From: a virus
DNA: 48,475 nt
IMG/VR virus record: IMGVR_UViG_3300035118_000155
Span: 1 to 48,475 of that record
Direction: 5' to 3' (one strand)
Shown here: positions 128 to 28,208 of the stretch, piece after piece
How positions within the stretch are numbered: the stretch's first letter is position 1
How the letters are laid out: each line of letters opens with the position of its first letter
The notes under the pieces: model-generated
What the model saw: only the letters and a program-made list of their open reading frames with translations
Database searches by the model: none
What the model was told of the DNA's origin: nothing
Made by a program: the position numbers and the translations under genes

Positions 128-1795
128 CACAACTGGCGGCCGGGGCAGTTCAGCAAGCTCGGGGTGAAGATCGCGTCGATGCACGGCACCATCCCGGAGC
201 CCGAGACGCTGACAGGCCACGAGCGCCCGGTGATGGACCGGATGCCGGGCGTCGGCCGCACGCCGTTCGTGTTCTTCAACTGGGCCGCGCGCAACATGGA
301 GGCGCAGACCTACCTGATGAAGCACGTCGCTGGCCAGCTCAACAGCAAGCCGGAGGCTCAGGTCCGGGAGGAGGCCGAGCGGTTCACGATGGCCGAGCAC
401 AACTTCCAGAACCGGGCGATGAACAGCGAGCTGGCCAACAACCCGTTCGTGCGGATCTTCGGAACGATGGCGGGCTGGATGACGCGCCGCTCGATCGCCA
501 ACTGGCGGTACTACGTCACGCACGGGGCCTACACCGGCCAGCGGATGGGTGGCGCCAACCCACTGACAGCCCTTGGCGCGCACGGCCTGGAGACCCTGAC
601 GAGGGCGGCCAAGACCGGCTTCTACATGGTGATGATGCAGCAGATCGGCCAGTCGCTGCCGAAGCTGTTCGGCTCGGAAGGCGTCGACCCGACCCGCTCG
701 ATCGGTGCCAGCGTGGAGTCGATCCCGCTCGTCGGCAAGGACATCAGCTACGAGCTCCGCAAGCTGTTCGCCAGGGTCGGCATCGACCAGGACGTCAGCA
801 CGCCCGGCATGCCGCAGGCAGCGTGGCGCCAGGACTGGGGCCAGCGGATCCGCGAAGCCGAGTGGCTGCCGACGGTGTTGAAGAACGTGCTGACCGACGA
901 GCGCGGCCACTTCCAGCTCGGCACCTTCGAGGGCGGCATCCCGCTCGACATCTTCTTCGGCAACTGGACGCCCTACAGCTACGAGACATTCAAGGACGCC
1001 TTCGACTGGATGTCGCAGGCGTGGTCCGAGAACTCGAAGGCAGCCGAGTCGGCGCGCGGCCGGTTCGTCATGTCGATCCTGGGCGGTAGCTGGCAGCGGG
1101 CGCTCAGCAACCTGTTCGCTGATCCGGACCCGGACGACCCGACCCGCGTCCTCAAGCGAGACCCGTTCACCGGCGTGGTGCTGGAGCACGCGAAGAGCAT
1201 GGGTGCCGGCGGCCCGATGGCGGCCATCTCCCGCTACATCTTCTCGTGGTTCGGCCCCAGCATCGAGAGCGGCTACCAGTGGCAGAACCGGTCAGTCGCC
1301 GACGCCAAGCGCGTCGAGTTCGAGAAGGGCCAGCGCGGCTCCGCTGCGTGGAACGCGACCCAGGCGCTGATGGAGTACCTGAAGTACCCGGGCACTGAGC
1401 GCAGCCAGGAGGCCATGCAGCGCGCCAGCTCCACCTTGCAGGACTACGTCAAGGAGACCGGCCGGCACTGGAGCGGCGGGCAGGTCAAGGCGCAGTTCAA
1501 GGAGTGGTACGACGCGGCCAAGGCCAACCTCTCCCTGTCGTCGTCAGAGCGTGACGTGCTGCACGCCGACACCGGCACCGAGAAGATCGGCCACCTGATC
1601 GAGGTCTTGGACAACCCCACGGTGCAGATCTCCGAGAAGCAGTTCGGCCGCATCCTGGAGAACATGAACCTCAAGCAGGCGGCGATGGGCGCCGACGCCA
1701 AGACGCTGCAGCGGTTCGCGGAGAGCTACAAAGCCGCCAAGGAGCGCTGGGCGGCGCAGGCTAGCCGGTCGGTGCCGTCGGGGCAGGGGCGCTGA
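2..1795 (+). CDS. Giant internal virion protein, C-terminal part (residues 2130-2726)
   Basis: This is the 3' end of the gene that starts at 41963. When the circle is closed at the 127-bp repeat, the frame is continuous and gives 2727 codons including TGA. The segment is largely alpha-helical and amphipathic, with a hydrophobic stretch near window position 620-680 (FYMVMMQQIG). No catalytic motif was recognised. Long polyvalent proteins at the end of a podovirus structural operon are usually internal-core proteins ejected with the DNA; that role is inferred from size, position and composition. The 3' end overlaps the convergent minus-strand gene by 35 bp. Confidence 0.85.
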   Translation, partial: PDFHKWPKLLQEDDVRFRKAAADLAMSPFAGGLYMEALGDVRHNWRPGQFSKLGVKIASMHGTIPEPETLTGHERPVMDRMPGVGRTPFVFFNWAARNMEAQTYLMKHVAGQLNSKPEAQVREEAERFTMAEHNFQNRAMNSELANNPFVRIFGTMAGWMTRRSIANWRYYVTHGAYTGQRMGGANPLTALGAHGLETLTRAAKTGFYMVMMQQIGQSLPKLFGSEGVDPTRSIGASVESIPLVGKDISYELRKLFARVGIDQDVSTPGMPQAAWRQDWGQRIREAEWLPTVLKNVLTDERGHFQLGTFEGGIPLDIFFGNWTPYSYETFKDAFDWMSQAWSENSKAAESARGRFVMSILGGSWQRALSNLFADPDPDDPTRVLKRDPFTGVVLEHAKSMGAGGPMAAISRYIFSWFGPSIESGYQWQNRSVADAKRVEFEKGQRGSAAWNATQALMEYLKYPGTERSQEAMQRASSTLQDYVKETGRHWSGGQVKAQFKEWYDAAKANLSLSSSERDVLHADTGTEKIGHLIEVLDNPTVQISEKQFGRILENMNLKQAAMGADAKTLQRFAESYKAAKERWAAQASRSVPSGQGR

Positions 1796-3725
1796 CCACG
1801 GTGCCGCCCAACTGCGGCGGCGCGAACCAGTCGGCCGGGAAGTTGCCCAGCAGGTCGTGGCTGTTGAAGCCCGAGCGGTAGACGTTCAGCAGGTAGTCGA
1901 AGTAGTCCCTCGCCTTGGACACCTCGCCGACGCCGCTCTCCATCACGACGGTGAGAGACAGCGGCATCCACGCCGTGCGGAACCAGCCAGTGCGGTGCCC
2001 GCTGACGCCCTCGACCAGACCGCCGGGCTGCATCTCCATCCAGTTGGCGAAGGTGCCGTCGTCGTTCTTGCCGATCATCTCCCACTCCAGGGGAGTCGGC
2101 GGGATGCTCTGGTAGCCGTAGCTGACGACGAAGCTGGCCATGTCCGCAGCGAGCTTCTTGCTCGGCTCGTGGTTGAGCAGCTTGCCGACCTGCCAGATGC
2201 CGAAGGCGCCGACCGCGATCTGGTAGACGAAGACCCGGCTGTCATACCCTCGCAGCTCGAAGTTCTTGGGGAACACCGCGCCGTCCCAGATCCCGTTGCG
2301 GTCCACGCTGGCTTGGTAGATCGCCACGCGCTCGGTCCAGCGCTCGGCCACCTGCAGCCGCAGCGGGTCGCTCTTCGGCAGCAGGTGGAGCAGGTGCGCC
2401 ACCTGCATGCCGCGCCAGCCGCGAGCGCGCGTCGCCCACGGATCGCTGGTGGACTTCTTCGGGTCCGAGGTCTCCTCCCACAGGTAGTTGCGGGCGCTGT
2501 GCCGCAGCTCCTCCAGCAGCGCCTCGTCGCCCGACAGCTCGTAGCCGGCGGCCGTGTCGTGGATCAGGACGTGCTCGTTGTCCGGCCCGAACCAGCCCTG
2601 CACGTCGCCGTTGATGTCGATCGCCCTGGGCTTGCCCAGCAGCAGCCAGCTCGGCGAGGCGATCTGGTTGCCGTTGGCGTCCAGGCTCTCCCACAGCGGC
2701 CGGCCCTGCCACATGAGGACCTGTGGACGCTGCTCGGGCAGCATCATCGAGCCGTCAGCGTTCAGGTAGTGGCACGGCTGGCGACCGTGCCCGAGGCCGC
2801 TCAGGATGCGCGGAACCTCGCCGCCGAGGCCGCCAGGGTAGAGGCTCTCCTTGCCCTGCTCGCAGCCCTGCTCTTCCTCGTCGCCCGTGCTCGTGGTGTT
2901 CTTGGCCGGGCCGATCGGCGGCAGGTCGTAGCCCTCCAGGTTGGTCCACATGCGGTCGGTCATCACCTTGGTCCACAGCGCCGGGTCGAACCGCGCCTGA
3001 TCGTAGAGCCCGCAGATGCCGACCTTCCGGAGCCCGTGGCCCTTGATGACAAGGCGTGATGCCATGTCCGCGGAGTAGTAGGGGATGCTCTGCGACCCCC
3101 AGTCGCCGAACGCCACGGCGGCCGGCGTCCGGCGGACCTGCCCGTCGCCGATGTAGCCCTTTTCACCGAAGCGGGACACGCCAAACTGCACCTGATGCTG
3201 CCCCATCGTCAGCTTGACGTTGGAGAAGTCGGCCGTCAGGTCCGGAATGTTCGGGTTGCTGCAGTAGACGCTCCAGGTCCCCGCCGCCCACTGCTGGCCG
3301 GGGTAGTAGCGCAGGATCAGCTCGCCCACCAGCATCCACGCGAAGCGGCCCTTGAACGTGGCCACCCAGCAGCCGTTGTCCGGCTCGAAGCTCATCAGCG
3401 GCAGCGTCACGCCGTTCGCAGTCGGCACGCCGAAGAACGTCAGGATGTCCTTCGGCAGCGGCGCGTCCTGCCACAGGTTGGCGATGAAGTCCTGGTCCGT
3501 GTCGAAGGCCACCGACTGCTGCGGCACCAGCTTGCACTCCAGGTGCAGGATGCGGCTGTTGTCGGAGACGAGGCGGCCCAGCGACCAGCGGCGGCCCTCC
3601 CGCGTGACCCCTCGACTGTGCTTCGGGCACAGCGCCGGGTCGATCACCGTGCGGTGGAAGCCGGTGAAGACCTCGTTGTTCGAGGCGAACTCGGCGGAGT
3701 CGTTGTTCTTGATGGTGAAGATCAC
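1761..3725 (-). CDS. Carbohydrate-active-enzyme-like protein, 654 aa
   Basis: The start is taken as GTG at 3725, which overlaps the recT stop as GTGA and has GGGAG 8 nt upstream. An ATG 15 nt earlier has no properly spaced ribosome site. The N-terminal third looks beta-rich. The C-terminal half is a series of helical hairpins with motifs common in alpha/alpha-barrel glycoside hydrolases and polysaccharide lyases, such as D-N-E-H-V-L-I-H-D followed by A-x-Y-x-L-S-G-D and R-G-W-R-G-M. The overall plan recalls exo-rhamnogalacturonan lyase-type enzymes (beta domain plus toroid), but this is a fold-level impression. No signal peptide is evident. It is the last gene of an operon whose first two genes are recombination functions, an odd place for a depolymerase. 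It could instead be an uncharacterised structural protein. Confidence 0.6.
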   Translation of the reverse strand: MIFTIKNNDSAEFASNNEVFTGFHRTVIDPALCPKHSRGVTREGRRWSLGRLVSDNSRILHLECKLVPQQSVAFDTDQDFIANLWQDAPLPKDILTFFGVPTANGVTLPLMSFEPDNGCWVATFKGRFAWMLVGELILRYYPGQQWAAGTWSVYCSNPNIPDLTADFSNVKLTMGQHQVQFGVSRFGEKGYIGDGQVRRTPAAVAFGDWGSQSIPYYSADMASRLVIKGHGLRKVGICGLYDQARFDPALWTKVMTDRMWTNLEGYDLPPIGPAKNTTSTGDEEEQGCEQGKESLYPGGLGGEVPRILSGLGHGRQPCHYLNADGSMMLPEQRPQVLMWQGRPLWESLDANGNQIASPSWLLLGKPRAIDINGDVQGWFGPDNEHVLIHDTAAGYELSGDEALLEELRHSARNYLWEETSDPKKSTSDPWATRARGWRGMQVAHLLHLLPKSDPLRLQVAERWTERVAIYQASVDRNGIWDGAVFPKNFELRGYDSRVFVYQIAVGAFGIWQVGKLLNHEPSKKLAADMASFVVSYGYQSIPPTPLEWEMIGKNDDGTFANWMEMQPGGLVEGVSGHRTGWFRTAWMPLSLTVVMESGVGEVSKARDYFDYLLNVYRSGFNSHDLLGNFPADWFAPPQLGGTVVSAPAPTAPTG

Positions 3726-5789: not shown

Positions 5790-6242
5790 ATGTCAGAGCA
5801 AGACAATGTGGCGCAACAGGATGCGCCCGTCAACCGTCCCGCGATCGACCATCGGAAGATCGCCGGCATCATCGCCGCCAGTGGCCTCGGCGGCCCCACC
5901 AATCAGGTCATCACCCAGCTCTTGGGTGAGTTCGGCTACGTCCCTCCCGGCACCGTTCCGGGGTACGCCGAGGTCGCTCCTCCCCAGACCGGCGAGGTCT
6001 GGATCGACACTGTGGAGATGACCACCGCTGCCCGTCGCAACGCCTACATGGCGGCGAGCAAGCTGATCGAGATCCGCAGTCCGAACGAGGCCGTTTACGT
6101 CACGAACGGCGAGGCGGTCGCCGGCATCTGGATGGCGCAGTACCGCGGTCGCTACTGCAAGTACGCCGACAGCATGGCGGCGGCGAAGACCAAGCTCGTG
6201 AGCGGCAATCCGCTCCACGGCGTCGTCTTCTACCGGGCCTGA
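5790..6242 (+). CDS. Unknown early protein, 150 aa, paralogue of next gene
   Basis: No known family recognised. The N-terminal 30 residues are polar. The middle has GEVWIDTVEMTTAARRNAYMAASKLI, and the C terminus has GRYCKYADSMAAAKTKLVSGNPLHGVVFYRA in two parts. The same landmarks (GEVW, then CKYADS-A-A-KLVS-PL-GV) recur in the gene at 6298, so the two are tandem paralogues. The start is the ATG following the CACGAG-AGGTTCCAC leader motif. No signal peptide or membrane segment. A small cytosolic early protein acting on the host is plausible from position only. Confidence 0.75.
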   Translation: MSEQDNVAQQDAPVNRPAIDHRKIAGIIAASGLGGPTNQVITQLLGEFGYVPPGTVPGYAEVAPPQTGEVWIDTVEMTTAARRNAYMAASKLIEIRSPNEAVYVTNGEAVAGIWMAQYRGRYCKYADSMAAAKTKLVSGNPLHGVVFYRA

Positions 6243-6297: not shown

Positions 6298-6744
6298 ATG
6301 ACAACTGCTTTCATTCCACCTGTACTGGCAGACCGCGACCTGTTCGCAGAGCGCGTTGCCAGGATCATCCGGGACGCTGCGGCCCAAGGTCTCTGTGGCA
6401 CCGGACAGGCCGTCGCCAAGAAGCTGATCGGCGCTCTGACGTCCGGGGCGGTCGGCAGCACCGTAGAGTTCAAGACCGGCGAGGTCTGGCTGCGCACCTA
6501 CGGCATGGACGCCAAGCGCCGCAACACGGCCTGGATCGCCCGCTGGCTCGTCCTGATCGACGACGCCGAATACCCGATCGGTCACTACCTGCGGGACATG
6601 GCGGACGCCGCCGCCGACGTCTTCGACGAGGCTTCACGCGCCTCTGGTCTGTGGTGCAAGTACGCCGACTCCGAGGCGGAAGCGCTCCAGAAGCTGGTGA
6701 GCGCCGATCCGTTGGCCGGCGTCCAGATTCCATCCCGAGCATGA
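6298..6744 (+). CDS. Unknown early protein, 148 aa, paralogue of previous gene
   Basis: No known family recognised. It shares with the 150-aa neighbour a GEVW strand in the middle and a C-terminal block (WCKYADSEAEALQKLVSADPLAGV), in the same order and at similar spacing. The N-terminal half is helical (RVARIIRDAAAQGL). Sequence outside the shared blocks has diverged strongly, which suggests an old duplication rather than a recent one. The ATG at 6298 is preceded by AAGGAG at 8-nt spacing; an upstream in-frame GTG lacks a ribosome site. Confidence 0.75.
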   Translation: MTTAFIPPVLADRDLFAERVARIIRDAAAQGLCGTGQAVAKKLIGALTSGAVGSTVEFKTGEVWLRTYGMDAKRRNTAWIARWLVLIDDAEYPIGHYLRDMADAAADVFDEASRASGLWCKYADSEAEALQKLVSADPLAGVQIPSRA

Positions 6745-13335: not shown

Positions 13336-13542
13336 TCACAGCTTGTTGCCTTTGTTGTCGGTGTCGGGGCCGAAGCAATGCTCGACGATGGCGATGCAGT
13401 CGAGAATGGCGAGCTGGTAGGTGTCGAGGTGCTCGGGCTGCTTGAGCTTCTCGATGTTGCCGAAGCCCTTCTGGGCGTTGCTGCCGAGGCTGTGCAGGCA
13501 GGTGGTGATGCGGCGCAGCATCAGCTTGTCCTTCTTGGTCAC
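13336..13542 (-). CDS. Small unknown helical protein, 68 aa
   Basis: GTG start overlapping the upstream stop as GTGA. The peptide is helical with three cysteines or so spread singly (TTCLHSLG, ILDCIAIVEHCFG). No family recognised. It is the last gene of the minus-strand small-gene operon. Confidence 0.65.
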   Translation of the reverse strand: MTKKDKLMLRRITTCLHSLGSNAQKGFGNIEKLKQPEHLDTYQLAILDCIAIVEHCFGPDTDNKGNKL

Positions 13543-13925
13543 GGCTCCCCCGAAATGCTCAAGCGCTCTGGCGCTCGGATCTCCGCTTCCCCGCCGTTCG
13601 TGCCTTGCGGCCGATGTAGGGAGACCAGCCCGAGACCAGAGCGCTCGATGGGTGAAGGTGTAGCAGCAGGCGCTGGCTTCGTCAACTTCGCCGGCGGGGT
13701 GGGCACGGGCAGCTCCTTGTCGGGGTTGGAGTGGTTCTCGTAGCGGACCTCGATGCCGGGGTTGTCGCTGGCCTTGGGCATGTGCCAGCCGTGGCGATCG
13801 AAGAAGCCGGTGACGTCGAGGTCTGTCATGGCGTCGGTTCGATGCCACGAGCCGCCGAGCTCCTTGCACAGGAAGTGGGTGGCGCCGCAGTCGGGGCAGT
13901 AGAGGTAGGCGCGGTTGTTGGCCAC
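13539..13925 (-). CDS. Unknown protein with N-terminal Cys pair, 128 aa
   Basis: The N terminus (YLYCPDCGATHFLCK) looks like half of a zinc ribbon, with a third cysteine nearby. The remainder is polar, with a long Pro/Thr/Lys-rich segment (PVPTPPAKLTKPAPAATPSP) and an unstructured end. No known family. It is coupled to the downstream gene by a GTGA overlap. Confidence 0.65.
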   Translation of the reverse strand: MANNRAYLYCPDCGATHFLCKELGGSWHRTDAMTDLDVTGFFDRHGWHMPKASDNPGIEVRYENHSNPDKELPVPTPPAKLTKPAPAATPSPIERSGLGLVSLHRPQGTNGGEAEIRAPERLSISGEP

Positions 13926-13927
13926 GG

Positions 13928-14194
13928 TCAGACCTTGTGGGTGCCCGAGATCGCCTGCACGAACTTGAAGAGCTCCTCGATCTCATGGACCGTGAGTTCG
14001 AGTGTGGGCCTGCCGCCGGGGCACAGGTCCTCGCCGGAGGCCGGTCGCAGCCGCAGCTCCACGCCGTCGATCTGGCCGGGGATGCCGTCGTGGCTGGTGC
14101 CGCAGGACGCCTTCAAGCTCAGCCTGCGCTGGCCGCGGTCGCCGCTCTCGATCTTGGTGGTGTAGACCCGCCAGCTATCCGTCTTGATGTCCAT
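13928..14194 (-). CDS. Unknown protein, 88 aa
   Basis: Predominantly beta-strand-like sequence (WRVYTTKIESGD, RRLSLKASCG, VELRLRP, TLELTVHEIEELFKFV), ending in a short helix. Two bases separate it from the next gene. No family recognised; possibly a small OB- or SH3-like fold, which cannot be confirmed by eye. Confidence 0.65.
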   Translation of the reverse strand: MDIKTDSWRVYTTKIESGDRGQRRLSLKASCGTSHDGIPGQIDGVELRLRPASGEDLCPGGRPTLELTVHEIEELFKFVQAISGTHKV

Positions 14195-14197
14195 CGG

Positions 14198-14422
14198 TCA
14201 CCCCGTGCCCTTCGTCGCACCGGCGGAGCAAGAGCCGGTTGGCACCTGCTTCTCGTCGAGCTTGTGGTCCCCACACCAGTCAGTAGGGTAGACGACGGGG
14301 TAGCCGCTCATGGTGGGAGCGTGGCGGCGGCAGCGGCCGAGCACGCCCTTAGGGACGAACCACATGCAGGTGAGGCAGCGCATGCCGCTGCTACGGTGGA
14401 TCCAGTTGTCAGGCTCGGTCAT
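14198..14422 (-). CDS. Cysteine-rich small protein, 74 aa
   Basis: Cysteines are arranged as C-L-T-C-M-W-F near residue 16, G-R-C-R-R-H-A-P near residue 30, and D-W-C-G-D-H-K near residue 50. This pattern (C-x2-C, C-x3-H-x-P, T-D-x-C-G) is seen in many small phage proteins and implies zinc or iron-sulfur binding. The C-terminal 20 residues are low complexity. Function unknown; the metal-binding reading is an inference from residue spacing. Confidence 0.7.
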   Translation of the reverse strand: MTEPDNWIHRSSGMRCLTCMWFVPKGVLGRCRRHAPTMSGYPVVYPTDWCGDHKLDEKQVPTGSCSAGATKGTG

Positions 14423-14425
14423 GGG

Positions 14426-14638
14426 TCACTCCTTGGGTTCTGAGTCGTCGAGGAAGAGTTGGTCGTCCACGCAGCCGACGGCGTGCTCGAAGCACTTGAT
14501 GCAGATCGTGCCGGGCACGAGCCGGTGCGGCGGCTCCATGAAGACCACCCCGCAGGCGGCGCAGCGCTGGAGCAGCGGCATGCCCGGCGCCGGACGACGC
14601 GGCGGGTCAGGCTCTTGGATCAGATCGGAGAGCGGCAC
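14426..14638 (-). CDS. Zinc-ribbon-like small protein, 70 aa
   Basis: R-C-A-A-C-G-V and I-C-I-K-C-F-E form two C-x2-C knuckles about 20 residues apart, the layout of a treble-clef or ribbon zinc finger. The start is uncertain: the GTG at 14638 overlaps the upstream gene by 33 bp, and an ATG at 14581 directly precedes the first knuckle; neither has a good ribosome site. Likely a small protein- or nucleic-acid-binding module. Confidence 0.6.
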   Translation of the reverse strand: MPLSDLIQEPDPPRRPAPGMPLLQRCAACGVVFMEPPHRLVPGTICIKCFEHAVGCVDDQLFLDDSEPKE

Positions 14639-14903
14639 GGTGGAGGTCCAGGTGTTCTTGGTGGTCGAGGTCGACGACGAGGATCGGGGTGGTGGCCAGC
14701 TCGCGGTGCTTGTCGAAGTGACGGACCAGGACAGCCCTGGCGTTCAGTTGCTCCACCATCGCCGGCAAGTAGTACTTCTTCAGGATCTCGTTCAGCGTCG
14801 CCGGTGCAGCCACCAGCTTCGGGGCTGCAGGCAGAGGCAGCCAGCGGATGGACGAGGCGACGGCGGCGCCGAGCAGGGAGCTGAGGAAGGAGCGGCGGTT
14901 CAC
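14607..14903 (-). CDS. Tat-signal protein carrying a copy of the capsid-protein N-terminal arm, 98 aa
   Basis: GTG start overlapping the previous stop as GTGA. Residues 1-30 look like a twin-arginine export signal (N-R-R-S-F-L-S-S, hydrophobic LLGAAVASSI, then LPLPAAP). Residues 38-79 (N-E-I-L-K-K-Y-Y-L-P-A-M-V-E-Q-L-N through V-V-D-L) align without gaps to residues 21-62 of this phage's major capsid protein (N-A-I-L-K-E-Y-Y-R-P-A-V-V-D-Q-L-N through V-L-D-L), 19 of 42 positions identical by hand count. The rest of the capsid fold is missing. It is therefore a capsid-arm mimic, apparently directed to the membrane or periplasm. The role is unknown: a decoy in superinfection exclusion or an assembly regulator are possibilities. 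Export by Tat is inferred only. Confidence 0.7.
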   Translation of the reverse strand: MNRRSFLSSLLGAAVASSIRWLPLPAAPKLVAAPATLNEILKKYYLPAMVEQLNARAVLVRHFDKHRELATTPILVVDLDHQEHLDLHRAALRSDPRA

Positions 14904-15148
14904 GCTGGCTTCTCCTGTCGCTCGAGGAAGGCGCGCATCTCGATGCAAGCGTTGGCTTCTTCGTGTCCGCAGACATCGCTGTGAATCCGCTCCTGTCCGC
15001 GCTTGACGAAGTAGATGGCTTCGCGCAACTCCGCGCGCAGGCGGTCGATGGTCGAGTTGGCGATGCCCAACTTGTGCACGAGCACCTGTCGCACGCCTTC
15101 GCTCTGCGCCAATCTCTCGCGCACCAGCTCCGGCGTGAGGTCGGTCAT
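14900..15148 (-). CDS. Unknown small helical protein, 82 aa
   Basis: ATG in an ATGA overlap with the upstream gene. Continuous helix-forming sequence (LTPELVRERLAQSEGVRQVLVHKL, IDRLRAELREAIYFVKRG) suggests a coiled coil. Two cysteines with a histidine between (SDVCGHEEANACIE) near the C terminus might bind metal. No family recognised. Confidence 0.65.
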   Translation of the reverse strand: MTDLTPELVRERLAQSEGVRQVLVHKLGIANSTIDRLRAELREAIYFVKRGQERIHSDVCGHEEANACIEMRAFLERQEKPA

Positions 15149-15552
15149 GGCTTGTTCTCCACGATGATCTGCTCTGCGACCCATTGCCGCATGAGGCGCC
15201 AGCGTTCCTCCGGCGTCGCGTTCCAGTTCCACTCGTCGTTGACGTGCTCGATCTCGGCCACCAACACCCGCGACACGTCGAGCGCAGCGCCGACCTGCTC
15301 ATGGGCTGTCGGGTCCAGGTCGTCCATGACGAGGCCGCGAGCGCGCCCGACGCAACCGAGTGCACAGACTTCGCCGGTCGGTGTCACGAACTCCTTGGCG
15401 ACCAGCCGTTTGTTCGGCATCGCATCGAGCGCGACGGCAAGGTCACGCAGAAGCCGCTGACCGCGCTTGCCGCGAATCGCGCTGGCTACCATTCCTCGCC
15501 AGTGGCCAAGTTCCAAAGGGGTGAGGTCATCACCGTAGTTGCTGCGGCTCAC
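15145..15552 (-). CDS. Conserved phage protein of unknown function, 135 aa
   Basis: GTG in a GTGA overlap. It has the pattern of a conserved small protein known from many phages of Gram-negative hosts: W-R-G-M-V-A-S-A-I-R-G-K-R-G-Q-R-L-L-R near residue 20, ALDAMPNKRLVAKE, G-E-V-C-A-L-G-x-V-G-R-A-R-G, then NDEWNW...TPEERWRLMRQWV at the C terminus. The family is common in early or accessory gene clusters, and its biochemical role is not known to me. It is weak evidence for a proteobacterial-type host range. Confidence 0.75.
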   Translation of the reverse strand: MSRSNYGDDLTPLELGHWRGMVASAIRGKRGQRLLRDLAVALDAMPNKRLVAKEFVTPTGEVCALGCVGRARGLVMDDLDPTAHEQVGAALDVSRVLVAEIEHVNDEWNWNATPEERWRLMRQWVAEQIIVENKP

Positions 15553-16010
15553 GTCGCCTCCTTTGCCTGCGGCACGTCGGTGGCGCCGCTGCGCGCCTCG
15601 GTGATTGCGTTGCGCATGGCGAACAGCAGGTCCTCGTTGGACTTGCCCATGGGTCCGAAGCCGGTGTCGATTGCCTGCACGTAGAGCGCAGTCGCCGCCG
15701 CTTCCGCCTCAGCTTTCTCCGCCCGCTGCTCCGCGGCGGTGATGAGCGCGACGGCTTCGTCGAGCGCGGCGAGGAACTTGTGCCCATGCACCCCGACCTC
15801 ATTGTGGGCTCGTAGCACGCGCTCCCGCCACGCCTTCGCCGCGTCGCTCGGCGGCGCTGTGAGGGGCGCAGGCCCGGCCAGCGTCTCGATCGCTTCGCGG
15901 ATCACCGCGCCGGTGTAGCCGCAGCCCGCGTTGCCGTGCGTGATGGCGACGCTGAGGATCAGCACCGCGTCGGCTCGCGTCATCGGCCGCTGCGTGTAGA
16001 CTGGTTCCAT
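15549..16010 (-). CDS. Unknown helical protein, 153 aa
   Basis: Start taken as the ATG at 16010, with AGGAG 10 nt upstream; an ATG at 15983 is possible. The C-terminal half contains a long Ala/Glu-rich helix (LDEAVALITAAEQRAEKAEAEAAATAL) likely to form a coiled coil, followed by MGKSNEDLLFAMRNAITEAR. No family recognised. Its start codon shares the palindrome CATG (16008-16011) with the divergent lipoprotein gene. Confidence 0.65.
   Translation of the reverse strand: MEPVYTQRPMTRADAVLILSVAITHGNAGCGYTGAVIREAIETLAGPAPLTAPPSDAAKAWRERVLRAHNEVGVHGHKFLAALDEAVALITAAEQRAEKAEAEAAATALYVQAIDTGFGPMGKSNEDLLFAMRNAITEARSGATDVPQAKEAT
15997..16002 (+). promoter_or_regulatory. TAGACT -10-like box 6 nt before lipoprotein start
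   Basis: TAGACT ends 6 nt before the ATG at 16009, the geometry of a leaderless promoter. There is no good -35 box at 16-19 nt upstream. No Shine-Dalgarno sequence precedes the ATG, which supports leaderless initiation. Confidence 0.4.
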
Positions 16011-16293
16011 GCTCAAGAAGCTCCTAGTCCTCGCGATGTTTGTCGTAGCCGTTGTCGCGGGCTGCAGCACGCCGCTTCCAGTCTCCGAGCAGCAACAGCT
16101 TGTCAACGGGCTGGTCGCCCTGCAGATGCTTGCCCCGCTTCTGACGCAGGGGCACCCCCACTTCGAGGCCCGGCTTCCGCTCTACGAGGCGGTCCTGGTC
16201 CAGCTCGCCCAGGGCGCCATCACCGACGCCGCGGCCCGCGCCCAGCTCTTCAAGATCTTCAGCGGCCCGGCGCCCCCGGCGCCCACGAAGTAG
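16009..16293 (+). CDS. Small lipoprotein, 94 aa
   Basis: Classic lipoprotein signal: MLKKL, hydrophobic LVLAMFVVAVVA, then lipobox V-A-G-C-S with Cys19 as the lipidated residue. The mature part is about 75 residues, helical (EQQQLVNGLVALQMLAPLLT, LYEAVLVQLAQGAITDAAARAQLFKIF), with a short Pro-rich tail. It is the only plus-strand gene inside the 13.3-17.8 kb minus-strand operon and appears to have its own promoter, so it may be expressed at a different time. Phage lipoproteins of this size act in superinfection exclusion or as outer spanins; the length and lack of a Pro-rich body make the former somewhat more likely. Confidence 0.8.
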   Translation: MLKKLLVLAMFVVAVVAGCSTPLPVSEQQQLVNGLVALQMLAPLLTQGHPHFEARLPLYEAVLVQLAQGAITDAAARAQLFKIFSGPAPPAPTK

Positions 16294-25941: not shown

Positions 25942-26799
25942 ATGACCGAATCGAAGGCGGCACCCACACCTGTTCCCGAGAATCTGTCGCCCGCAGCGCG
26001 GGCGATCCTGGAACAGCAAGGGGTGCGACTGGAACCTCCGGCCGGAAGCAACGGGTCTAGTGCTGCGGAACCCAGCAAGCAGATACCGAAGGAAGTCTCC
26101 ATCGACATCGACGGGGTGACCCGTGTGGTGTCGGTCGACGACCTCGCCGATGCCTACCGCAGGCGCAGCGAGACGGTGAGTGCAGCGAAGGCCCTGGAGC
26201 AGCGGCTGGCATCAGTCGGCCAGACCCAGGCCCTGCAGGCACTACAGCAGGCCATCGACGGCCTGCCGCCGCGCGAGCGTGCGCAGGTGTTCTCGATCCT
26301 CCAGGGTCAGGGCGACGAGCCCGAGCCCGAGGTCGAGGACGGCATCGACGGGGCAACGCCCGAGCCGGCACGCCGGCAGGTGCGTCCTCAGTCGGATCCG
26401 CGAATCGACCGTCTGGAGCAGGGTCTCCAGGCGCTCGCCGCGGAAGCCAACGAGCGGATCGCCGCGAGGAAGGAAGAGACGCGCAAGGAGAAGGTCCAGC
26501 GCCTGATGCAGTCGGTTCCCCTCTTCGAGGAGAACAAGACGGCCTCCGGGCTCGCTGAGAAGCTGATCCTGACGCAGCTCGCCCTCCACCCGAACCGGTC
26601 CGAAGAGGATGTCGTGCAGGAGGCAGCCAAGACGTTGACGCAGCTCGAACAGCGCGCCCGAGATGGTGCGGTGGCCGAGCGCCGGGTTCCTCAGCCAGGA
26701 TTCAACCTCCCCGAACAGAAGCGGGGAGTGCTCACCGGCAAGGGACTCCGTGCAGGAGACGTTCGCAGGGCCGCGCTGCGAGCGCTCAACGGCATGTAG
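25942..26799 (+). CDS. Putative capsid scaffolding protein, 285 aa
   Basis: Located immediately before the major capsid gene, the standard place for a scaffold. Composition fits: hydrophilic, Gln/Glu/Arg-rich, helical, with a Pro-rich N terminus, a coiled coil (YRRRSETVSAAKALEQRLASVG, IDRLEQGLQALAAEANERI), an acidic segment (DEPEPEVEDGIDG) and a basic C-terminal end (KRGVLTGKGLRAGDVRRAALRAL) of the kind that docks on coat protein. No protease motif. Sequence identity to known scaffolds was not recognised, so the call rests on position and composition. Confidence 0.75.
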   Translation: MTESKAAPTPVPENLSPAARAILEQQGVRLEPPAGSNGSSAAEPSKQIPKEVSIDIDGVTRVVSVDDLADAYRRRSETVSAAKALEQRLASVGQTQALQALQQAIDGLPPRERAQVFSILQGQGDEPEPEVEDGIDGATPEPARRQVRPQSDPRIDRLEQGLQALAAEANERIAARKEETRKEKVQRLMQSVPLFEENKTASGLAEKLILTQLALHPNRSEEDVVQEAAKTLTQLEQRARDGAVAERRVPQPGFNLPEQKRGVLTGKGLRAGDVRRAALRALNGM

Positions 26800-26825: not shown

Positions 26826-28208
26826 ATGGCAATCTTCACGGCCCAGGGCGCGACCCGGGGCTCCAACCTTGGCGGTGGCGCGTTCAACGCCATCCTCAAG
26901 GAGTACTACCGCCCCGCGGTGGTCGACCAGCTCAACAGCAAGACGGTGCTCAGCCGTCTGTTGGGCCGACGCAGCGAAGGTGTCGAGGGCAAGTACTACG
27001 TCCTCGATCTGAACACCAACCGCAACTTCGGCTACGGCGCGATCGACGAGGCAGGCCGCCTCCCCGACCCGCTGATGCAGGAGGCCCGGCAGGCCCGCTA
27101 CTCGATGCGCTACACCTACGGGCGCATCAAGTTCACCGGTCCGGCAGCCTCTGGAAGCCGCAGCGACAAGGGCTCCTTCATCCGGATGATGGACTTCGAG
27201 GTCCAGGGCATGACCCGCGACATCCAGGTGAACGACAACCGGATCCTGTACGGCGACGGCTCTGGCCGGCTCTGTCAGATCTCAGGCGGCAGCGGCACCC
27301 CAGGTGTCGCCTACACGGTGACCAACCCTGGCGGCATCAGCAGCACCGCGCTCGGCACCCAGTACCTAGCCCCCGGCATGCGCGTTGGTTTCGCCTCCCT
27401 CGGCACCGCCGACGGCGCCGGCTCCGGCCTGCTCACCACGACGCCGGGAACTCTCTGGGGCGGCAATCGCGCTGCCTATATCGCCACCGTCGATCCGACG
27501 ACTGGCACCGTGACGTTCAGCTCGACGTGGCCGACGATCACGCTGACCGCTGGAGGCGCCATCACGGTCGGCCCCCAGTATCTGTACCAGGTCTCGGACG
27601 TTTCGGTCGACACCCCGGCCAACTCGTGGGGCCGTGGTCGCGAGCCGAACGGTCTGGCGGCGATCGTGCTGGACGCCGACCCGACGTTCCAGGACGGCCT
27701 GACCGGCAACTGGCCGCAGGGCCTGGGTGAGGTCCCCGCGACGGTGCAGACGTGGCGCGGCAACGTCATCGACAACGGTGGCACGCCGATCCCGTTCGCG
27801 CCCGACATGCTGCAGCAGGGCATGGACCTCGTCGACACGGCCGGTGACGGCACGATCGCGATGTGGGTGACAACCCATGGCATCCGCCGGCAGTACCTGA
27901 ACGGCCTCGTGGCCGCGAAGCGGTACCCCAACGCGATGGAGATGGACGGCGGCTTCAAGGCGCTGAGCTACGACGGCCGCCCGATCGTGGTCGACAAGGA
28001 CTGCACGCGCGGTCGCATCTACGGCCTCGACCTGGAGTCCCTGTTCCTCGCGTACGAGACCGACTACGACTGGATCGACCAGGACGGCTCGGTGCTGCAC
28101 CGCATGCCGGACGCCGACGCCTTCCAGGCGTGCATGTATCGGTACTGGAACTTCTGCACGGAAGCCCGCAACCGGAACGTAGCACTCATCGACATCATGG
28201 ACGTCTAG
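26826..28208 (+). CDS. Major capsid protein, 460 aa
   Basis: Follows the scaffold gene and has the composition of an HK97-fold coat. The N-terminal arm (residues 20-62) reads F-N-A-I-L-K-E-Y-Y-R-P-A-V-V-D-Q-L-N then T-V-L-S-R-L-L and ends Y-V-L-D-L. The E-loop/P-domain region has YSMRYTYGRIKFTGPAASGSR and IQVNDNRILYGDGSGRL; the middle is beta-rich with GTVTFSSTWPTITLTAGG; the C-terminal A-domain-like part includes MWVTTHGIRRQYLNGL, GRPIVVDKDCTRGRIYGLDL. No protease cleavage site is obvious. The N-terminal arm is reproduced in the early Tat-signal protein at 14607-14903. Confidence 0.88.
   Translation: MAIFTAQGATRGSNLGGGAFNAILKEYYRPAVVDQLNSKTVLSRLLGRRSEGVEGKYYVLDLNTNRNFGYGAIDEAGRLPDPLMQEARQARYSMRYTYGRIKFTGPAASGSRSDKGSFIRMMDFEVQGMTRDIQVNDNRILYGDGSGRLCQISGGSGTPGVAYTVTNPGGISSTALGTQYLAPGMRVGFASLGTADGAGSGLLTTTPGTLWGGNRAAYIATVDPTTGTVTFSSTWPTITLTAGGAITVGPQYLYQVSDVSVDTPANSWGRGREPNGLAAIVLDADPTFQDGLTGNWPQGLGEVPATVQTWRGNVIDNGGTPIPFAPDMLQQGMDLVDTAGDGTIAMWVTTHGIRRQYLNGLVAAKRYPNAMEMDGGFKALSYDGRPIVVDKDCTRGRIYGLDLESLFLAYETDYDWIDQDGSVLHRMPDADAFQACMYRYWNFCTEARNRNVALIDIMDV

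Follow-up and report, generated by a model that had tools for sequence, protein, structure and literature searches.

A small gene in a phage early operon appears to join a Tat-like leader to a segment of the major capsid protein N-arm

In phage P22, the C-terminal helices of the scaffold bind acidic residues of the coat protein N-arm (PMC9965877), and in SPP1 all coat subunits bind the scaffold via their N-terminal helix; this helix subsequently unfolds to form an arm by which the capsomers are tied together (PMC6813328). Accessory proteins can intervene in virion assembly. Ccm, a capsid-protein homologue carried by the satellite SaPIbov5, is built into capsomers and redirects the assembly of the helper capsid (PMC8569155), and Tab, encoded by a prophage, acts on the tape measure protein to block tail assembly (PMC10884400). 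Here we describe a 98-residue protein, encoded in a 48,475-nucleotide stretch of viral DNA that was analysed whole (the window), which very probably consists of a Tat-like leader followed by a coat-arm segment. Like Ccm, it is apparently an accessory protein of capsid-protein origin; unlike Ccm, it comprises the arm only, carries a leader and is encoded by the phage itself. It resembles Tab as a phage protein interfering with virion assembly, an activity shown for Tab and proposed here for the fusion protein, and differs from it in that Tab acts on tail assembly by way of the tape measure protein. With the N-arm of the podovirus HK97-fold coats of the NF033394/PHROG 14242 family, the fusion protein aligns ungapped over residues 36-68 and shares K-x-Y and Q-L-N, whereas it has no E-loop, P-domain or A-domain, is encoded at another gene position and has a leader in front. 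The leader itself is like Tat signal peptides (PF10518) in its N-R-R-S-F-L, its short and moderately hydrophobic run and the A-x-A before the mature part, and unlike them in scoring under the curated cut-off and in having a short h-region broken by R20. Among the titles and abstracts of the literature searched, we found no precedent for exported coat fragments, coat decoys or Tat-exported phage proteins.

The fusion gene is a real-looking small gene of the early operon that overlaps its upstream neighbour (Table 1). A sequence-only reading of this DNA had given its reading frame, coordinates and strand correctly, and had also rightly assigned it to an early operon on the minus strand, well away from the gene for the coat: the group of tightly packed small genes to which it belongs extends from 13336 to 16010, and 12 kb separate it from the latter. 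The GTG start codon at 14903 shares a GTGA with the stop codon of the upstream gene, and an AGGAG lies a few bases 5' of it. GC content by codon position (0.71/0.43/0.82) is like that of the neighbouring genes, GC3 within the arm part is 0.91, and the gene was accepted, with a score of 24.7, by a codon model built on the long genes of the window. The PHROG 25637 gene of the operon is common in other phages, with 92 relatives in IMG/VR and others in the Pseudomonas phages YA3 and PAE2, and this distribution suggests a Gram-negative host. The structural genes of the window look like those of actinobacteriophages, for example Jasmine and Shocker. Elsewhere in the window, a small lipoprotein-like gene (MLKKLLVLAMFVVAVVAGCSTP; 16009-16293, plus strand), which matched small lipoprotein families weakly, lies within the early region on the other strand, and two adjacent plus-strand genes (5790-6242 and 6298-6744) look like paralogues by eye, with GEVW and CKYADS motifs in common.

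Table 1. Positions of the fusion gene, its parts, its operon neighbours and the structural genes discussed in the text (window coordinates).
Feature	Position	Strand	Basis
Fusion gene, 98 aa: Tat-like leader and coat N-arm segment	14607..14903	minus	GTG start, AGGAG, GTGA overlap, codon statistics
Leader, residues 1-35 (MNRRSFLSSLLGAAVASSIRWLPLPAAPKLVAAPA): N-RR-S-FL, short hydrophobic run, possible cleavage site A33-P34-A35	14799..14903	minus	Sequence; Pfam, shuffles
Homologous core of coat N-arm, residues 36-68 (TLNEILKKYYLPAMVEQLNARAVLVRHFDKHRE)	14700..14798	minus	Coat-only profile; 27/30 aligned positions carry a residue used by other coats at the same column
Tail, residues 69-98, weakly or not coat-like	14610..14699	minus	Outside profile match
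Upstream operon neighbour, 82 aa	14900..15148	minus	Stop overlaps fusion-gene start; without family match
Downstream neighbour, zinc-ribbon-like, 51-70 aa by choice of start	14426..14638	minus	Weak Pfam zinc-ribbon match, E 0.003
Operon neighbour, PHROG 25637 (DUF6197-like)	15145..15552	minus	E 7e-34
Probable scaffold gene, directly 5' of coat gene	25942..26799	plus	Position and basic C-terminus only
Major capsid protein, HK97 fold	26826..28208	plus	NCBIfam NF033394, E 5e-54; PHROG 14242 major head protein; Foldseek to HK97-fold capsids (coat model of mean pLDDT 61.5)
N-arm of major capsid protein, part matching fusion gene	26880..27020	plus	tblastn of the small protein within its own genome, E 1.2e-6

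The likeness to the coat had been put at 19 identical residues out of 42, counted by hand between residues 38-79 of the small protein and residues 21-62 of the major capsid protein, and this ungapped count is exact. The pairwise BLOSUM62 score was 86 (Gumbel p 1.5e-9), whereas 3,000 shuffles averaged 26.8 and never exceeded 49; the runner-up among the 780 stop-to-stop frames of the window scored 43. Profile comparison, to which the sequence-only reading had deferred the question of significance, gave a significant match: a profile of 15 coat arms, from which the fusion protein was left out to guard against circularity, found it at 31.5 bits (E 5e-9), and 20,000 shuffles peaked at 10.4. By these sequence measures the segment is homologous to the coat arm. 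The secure part of the match covers only about 33 residues, which would favour a chance or convergent likeness of a short helix to the arm, yet the shuffle and profile values above, together with a summed column frequency of 10.9 against a permutation maximum of 6.9, make such a coincidence extremely improbable, and we excluded it on these shuffle, profile and permutation statistics.

The homology does not extend evenly along the 42 residues first proposed. The coat-only profile matched residues 30-68 of the fusion protein; the core at residues 36-68 is solid, while residues 69-98 are weak and fall outside the profile match. The coat match is degenerate in its second half, where the conserved G, P, R and N have been lost; a predicted strand at tail residues 74-78 aligns with coat strand 57-63 in models of low confidence. 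In the low-confidence coat model, the matched piece corresponds to the N-terminal helix and the turn ahead of the E-loop strands. The predicted fold of the fusion protein had a mean pLDDT of 59 and was unusable. As the sequence-only reading had observed, the rest of the coat fold is missing from the small protein, which, at 98 residues and with no whole-protein match to NF033394, has none of the E-loop, P- and A-domains that a major capsid protein with the whole HK97 fold would need.

The pattern of conservation within the arm follows that of the coat family. Among the coat's relatives in viral contigs and GenBank phages, the densest clustering of conserved residues falls in this arm segment, as L-K-E-x-Y and Q-L-N, and the fusion protein retains the L, K, Y, Q, L and N of these motifs, with lysine in place of the glutamate. 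Identities favour conserved columns and changes favour variable ones (permutation p from 0.003 to 0.06 according to the coat used). The arm glutamate was present in 118 of 120 arm sequences, a count biased by search patterns that required K-E or K-K for many of the loci, and both exceptions, the fusion protein and a full-length coat of another contig (L244:2456-3853, minus strand), carry a lysine. We considered the glutamate as absolutely invariant, and its charge reversal as diagnostic of the fusion protein, and rejected both ideas because the coat of L244 is genuine and also has the lysine.

The earlier reading had described the segment as a copy of the phage's own coat arm. The comparison with other coats did not bear this out: the arm is 15/30 identical to the resident coat (score 76) and 15/30 identical to that of a second phage, L011 (score 78), and codon alignment of the fusion gene with the coat gene revealed no long identical DNA. 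A recent duplicate of the resident coat gene was ruled out by this equidistance and by the lack of DNA similarity. Furthermore, the coats of L003, L290 and L282 are nearer to the window coat than the fusion protein is. Because the resident coat is no closer than another and shares no long DNA identity, the arm probably came from this coat family long ago or from another of its members.

Preceding the arm is a leader in which a motif scan found an R-R-x-F-L motif near the start, an h-region and an A-x-A, and its A-P-A ends exactly where the arm starts, marking a clean modular boundary. Only 256 of 200,000 shuffles (about 1e-3) and 2 of 3,585 other SD-preceded small ORFs passed the same Tat-like filter. 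The Tat-like signal seen by the sequence-only reading is therefore above chance by shuffling, although its match to the Pfam TAT_signal family (12.1 bits, E 0.21) lies under the cut-off of 22.7 and an NCBIfam search of the fusion protein returned no Tat match. From its sequence, the leader is Tat-like and export is plausible. A Tat-like leader (MDRRGFLGGAISGAAAFAGA) also precedes an apparent phage protein (PHROG 29525, weak) in the 126-residue gene product at L198:9905 on the plus strand, and Tat-like leaders may thus get joined to other phage proteins too.

If the leader is functional, the fusion could be an exported envelope protein, with Tat or Sec delivering a 63-residue arm peptide to the periplasm for action on the host envelope or for superinfection exclusion. 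The twin-arginine-like leader, the A-x-A before the mature part and the Gram-negative host suggested by the operon neighbour are all in keeping with this role, which we nevertheless consider unlikely. The Tat score is below the Pfam cut-off and NCBIfam gave no Tat match, the PADLOC defence families gave no match up to E 1, and the capsid of an incoming phage remains outside the cell, so that a periplasmic arm would have no obvious partner. A second suggestion, that the protein is a decoy blunting a host immune sensor of the phage coat, seems very unlikely; we know of no coat sensor for this phage or its host. Coat-sensing host systems do exist, CapRel-SJ46 being an example, but in the published model CapRel touches the P-domain of the coat and not the N-arm (PMC9712102). 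Moreover, coat sensors work in the cytoplasm, which conflicts with an export leader. Superinfection exclusion and sensor decoy had both been put forward by the earlier reading; neither gained positive evidence, and export would separate the arm from cytoplasmic coat, scaffold and coat sensors alike.

We searched widely for other fusions of this kind. Peptide-pattern scans of IMG/VR and of about 85,000 prokaryote (bacterial and archaeal) genomes recovered none, and two DNA patterns spanning leader and arm returned only coats and chance matches over IMG/VR, such pattern scans being narrow. The tblastn searches of GenBank phages and plasmids likewise found no leader-arm fusion, in a method insensitive to the short arm: a consensus arm found nothing despite the real coats in that collection. 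No second coat arm was present in 68 other phage records (24 + 44, many of them fragments) searched whole with the arm profile, and 46 records, mostly carrying the operon neighbour, held no relative of the small protein, the two matches being the coats themselves. Recurring leader-arm fusions were accordingly dropped as a candidate, as DNA patterns, peptide patterns, tblastn and whole-record searches gave coats only. Among the 37,040 distinct frames of the fetched loci, the fusion gene was the sole short and complete frame to match the arm significantly, apart from one in L259. The latter (1505-2290, minus strand) is a coat frame of 262 residues, where at least 400 are usual, and is not cut by the contig end; we take it as a truncated or frameshifted coat. 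In the collections, the contigs most closely related to the phage are short (L003 and L010, 6.3 kb; L016, 7.1 kb) and end before the fusion locus. The portal protein of L016, from another metagenome, is 100% identical to that of the window, so that this phage or a near twin of it has been sampled twice. The pairing of a Tat signal with the local coat arm, which the sequence-only reading had proposed to check in relatives, was found in no other record searched. We read the fusion gene, on its sequence, as an apparently genuine, unusual and lineage-specific domain fusion that is so far a singleton.

A non-functional chimera is a serious rival, one that we consider possible though not probable. 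In this scenario, illegitimate recombination joined part of a coat gene to the end of a sequence coding for a leader, yielding a non-functional or barely functional protein that serves no selected role. The singleton status against 68 whole-searched phage records, the absence from all collections searched, the degenerate second half of the coat match with its lost conserved residues and the RecT-type recombinase encoded in the same genome all speak for it. The frame, on the other hand, is intact, with an SD sequence, a coupled GTGA start and a GC3 of 0.91 in the arm. The arm also retains most of the conserved residues of the family although it differs from all known coats by 50%, which sets it apart from a decaying remnant of a sampled coat.

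Taken as a whole, the best explanation, to which we give a probability of about 0.4, is a captured coat arm acting as an arm mimic. The arm would have been taken from a coat gene of the NF033394 family by recombination, long ago or from a distant donor, with the RecT-type recombinase as a plausible agent of the capture. Because the N-arm binds the scaffold in P22 and SPP1, a free arm could compete for the scaffold or for the arm-binding surface of a neighbouring coat subunit. Such competition might damp or delay capsid assembly, either in the phage's own infection at an early stage or in a co-infecting relative; if the leader works, the protein would be removed or sequestered at or beyond the inner membrane. 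The retained residues being the most conserved ones of the arm is in favour of mimicry. As to the partner within the window, family searches with the product of the scaffold candidate gave no significant match, and its role is deduced from gene order.

We regard the mechanism itself as doubtful, and several observations weigh against it. Were the leader functional, the arm would end up beyond the cytoplasm and out of reach of scaffold and coat. This contradiction would be resolved if the leader fails to export, if it serves to dispose of the arm or to anchor it, or if the arm has acquired a new use. The change from glutamate to lysine reverses the charge where the scaffold could bind, although the coat of L244 has the same lysine. 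The conserved residues could also have been inherited from the donor coat and not kept by selection, and the pairing of leader and arm may not be maintained, as the collections searched yielded no fusion related to it. An arm mimic that touches scaffold or coat assembly is still the most likely role, if the protein has any. The more specific proposal of a separate, early, membrane-directed regulator of assembly, which tunes capsid formation or hampers competing relatives and is not described in the literature searched, appears quite unlikely.

Provided that the gene is expressed and under selection, it would exemplify the reuse of a coat family's most conserved peptide, detached from the coat and placed under early control with an export-type leader. 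It would also offer a natural peptide for probing how scaffold and coat recognize each other, and possibly a new form of interference with capsid assembly. If the fusion arose by chance, it would be an example of the birth of an orphan gene by phage recombination.
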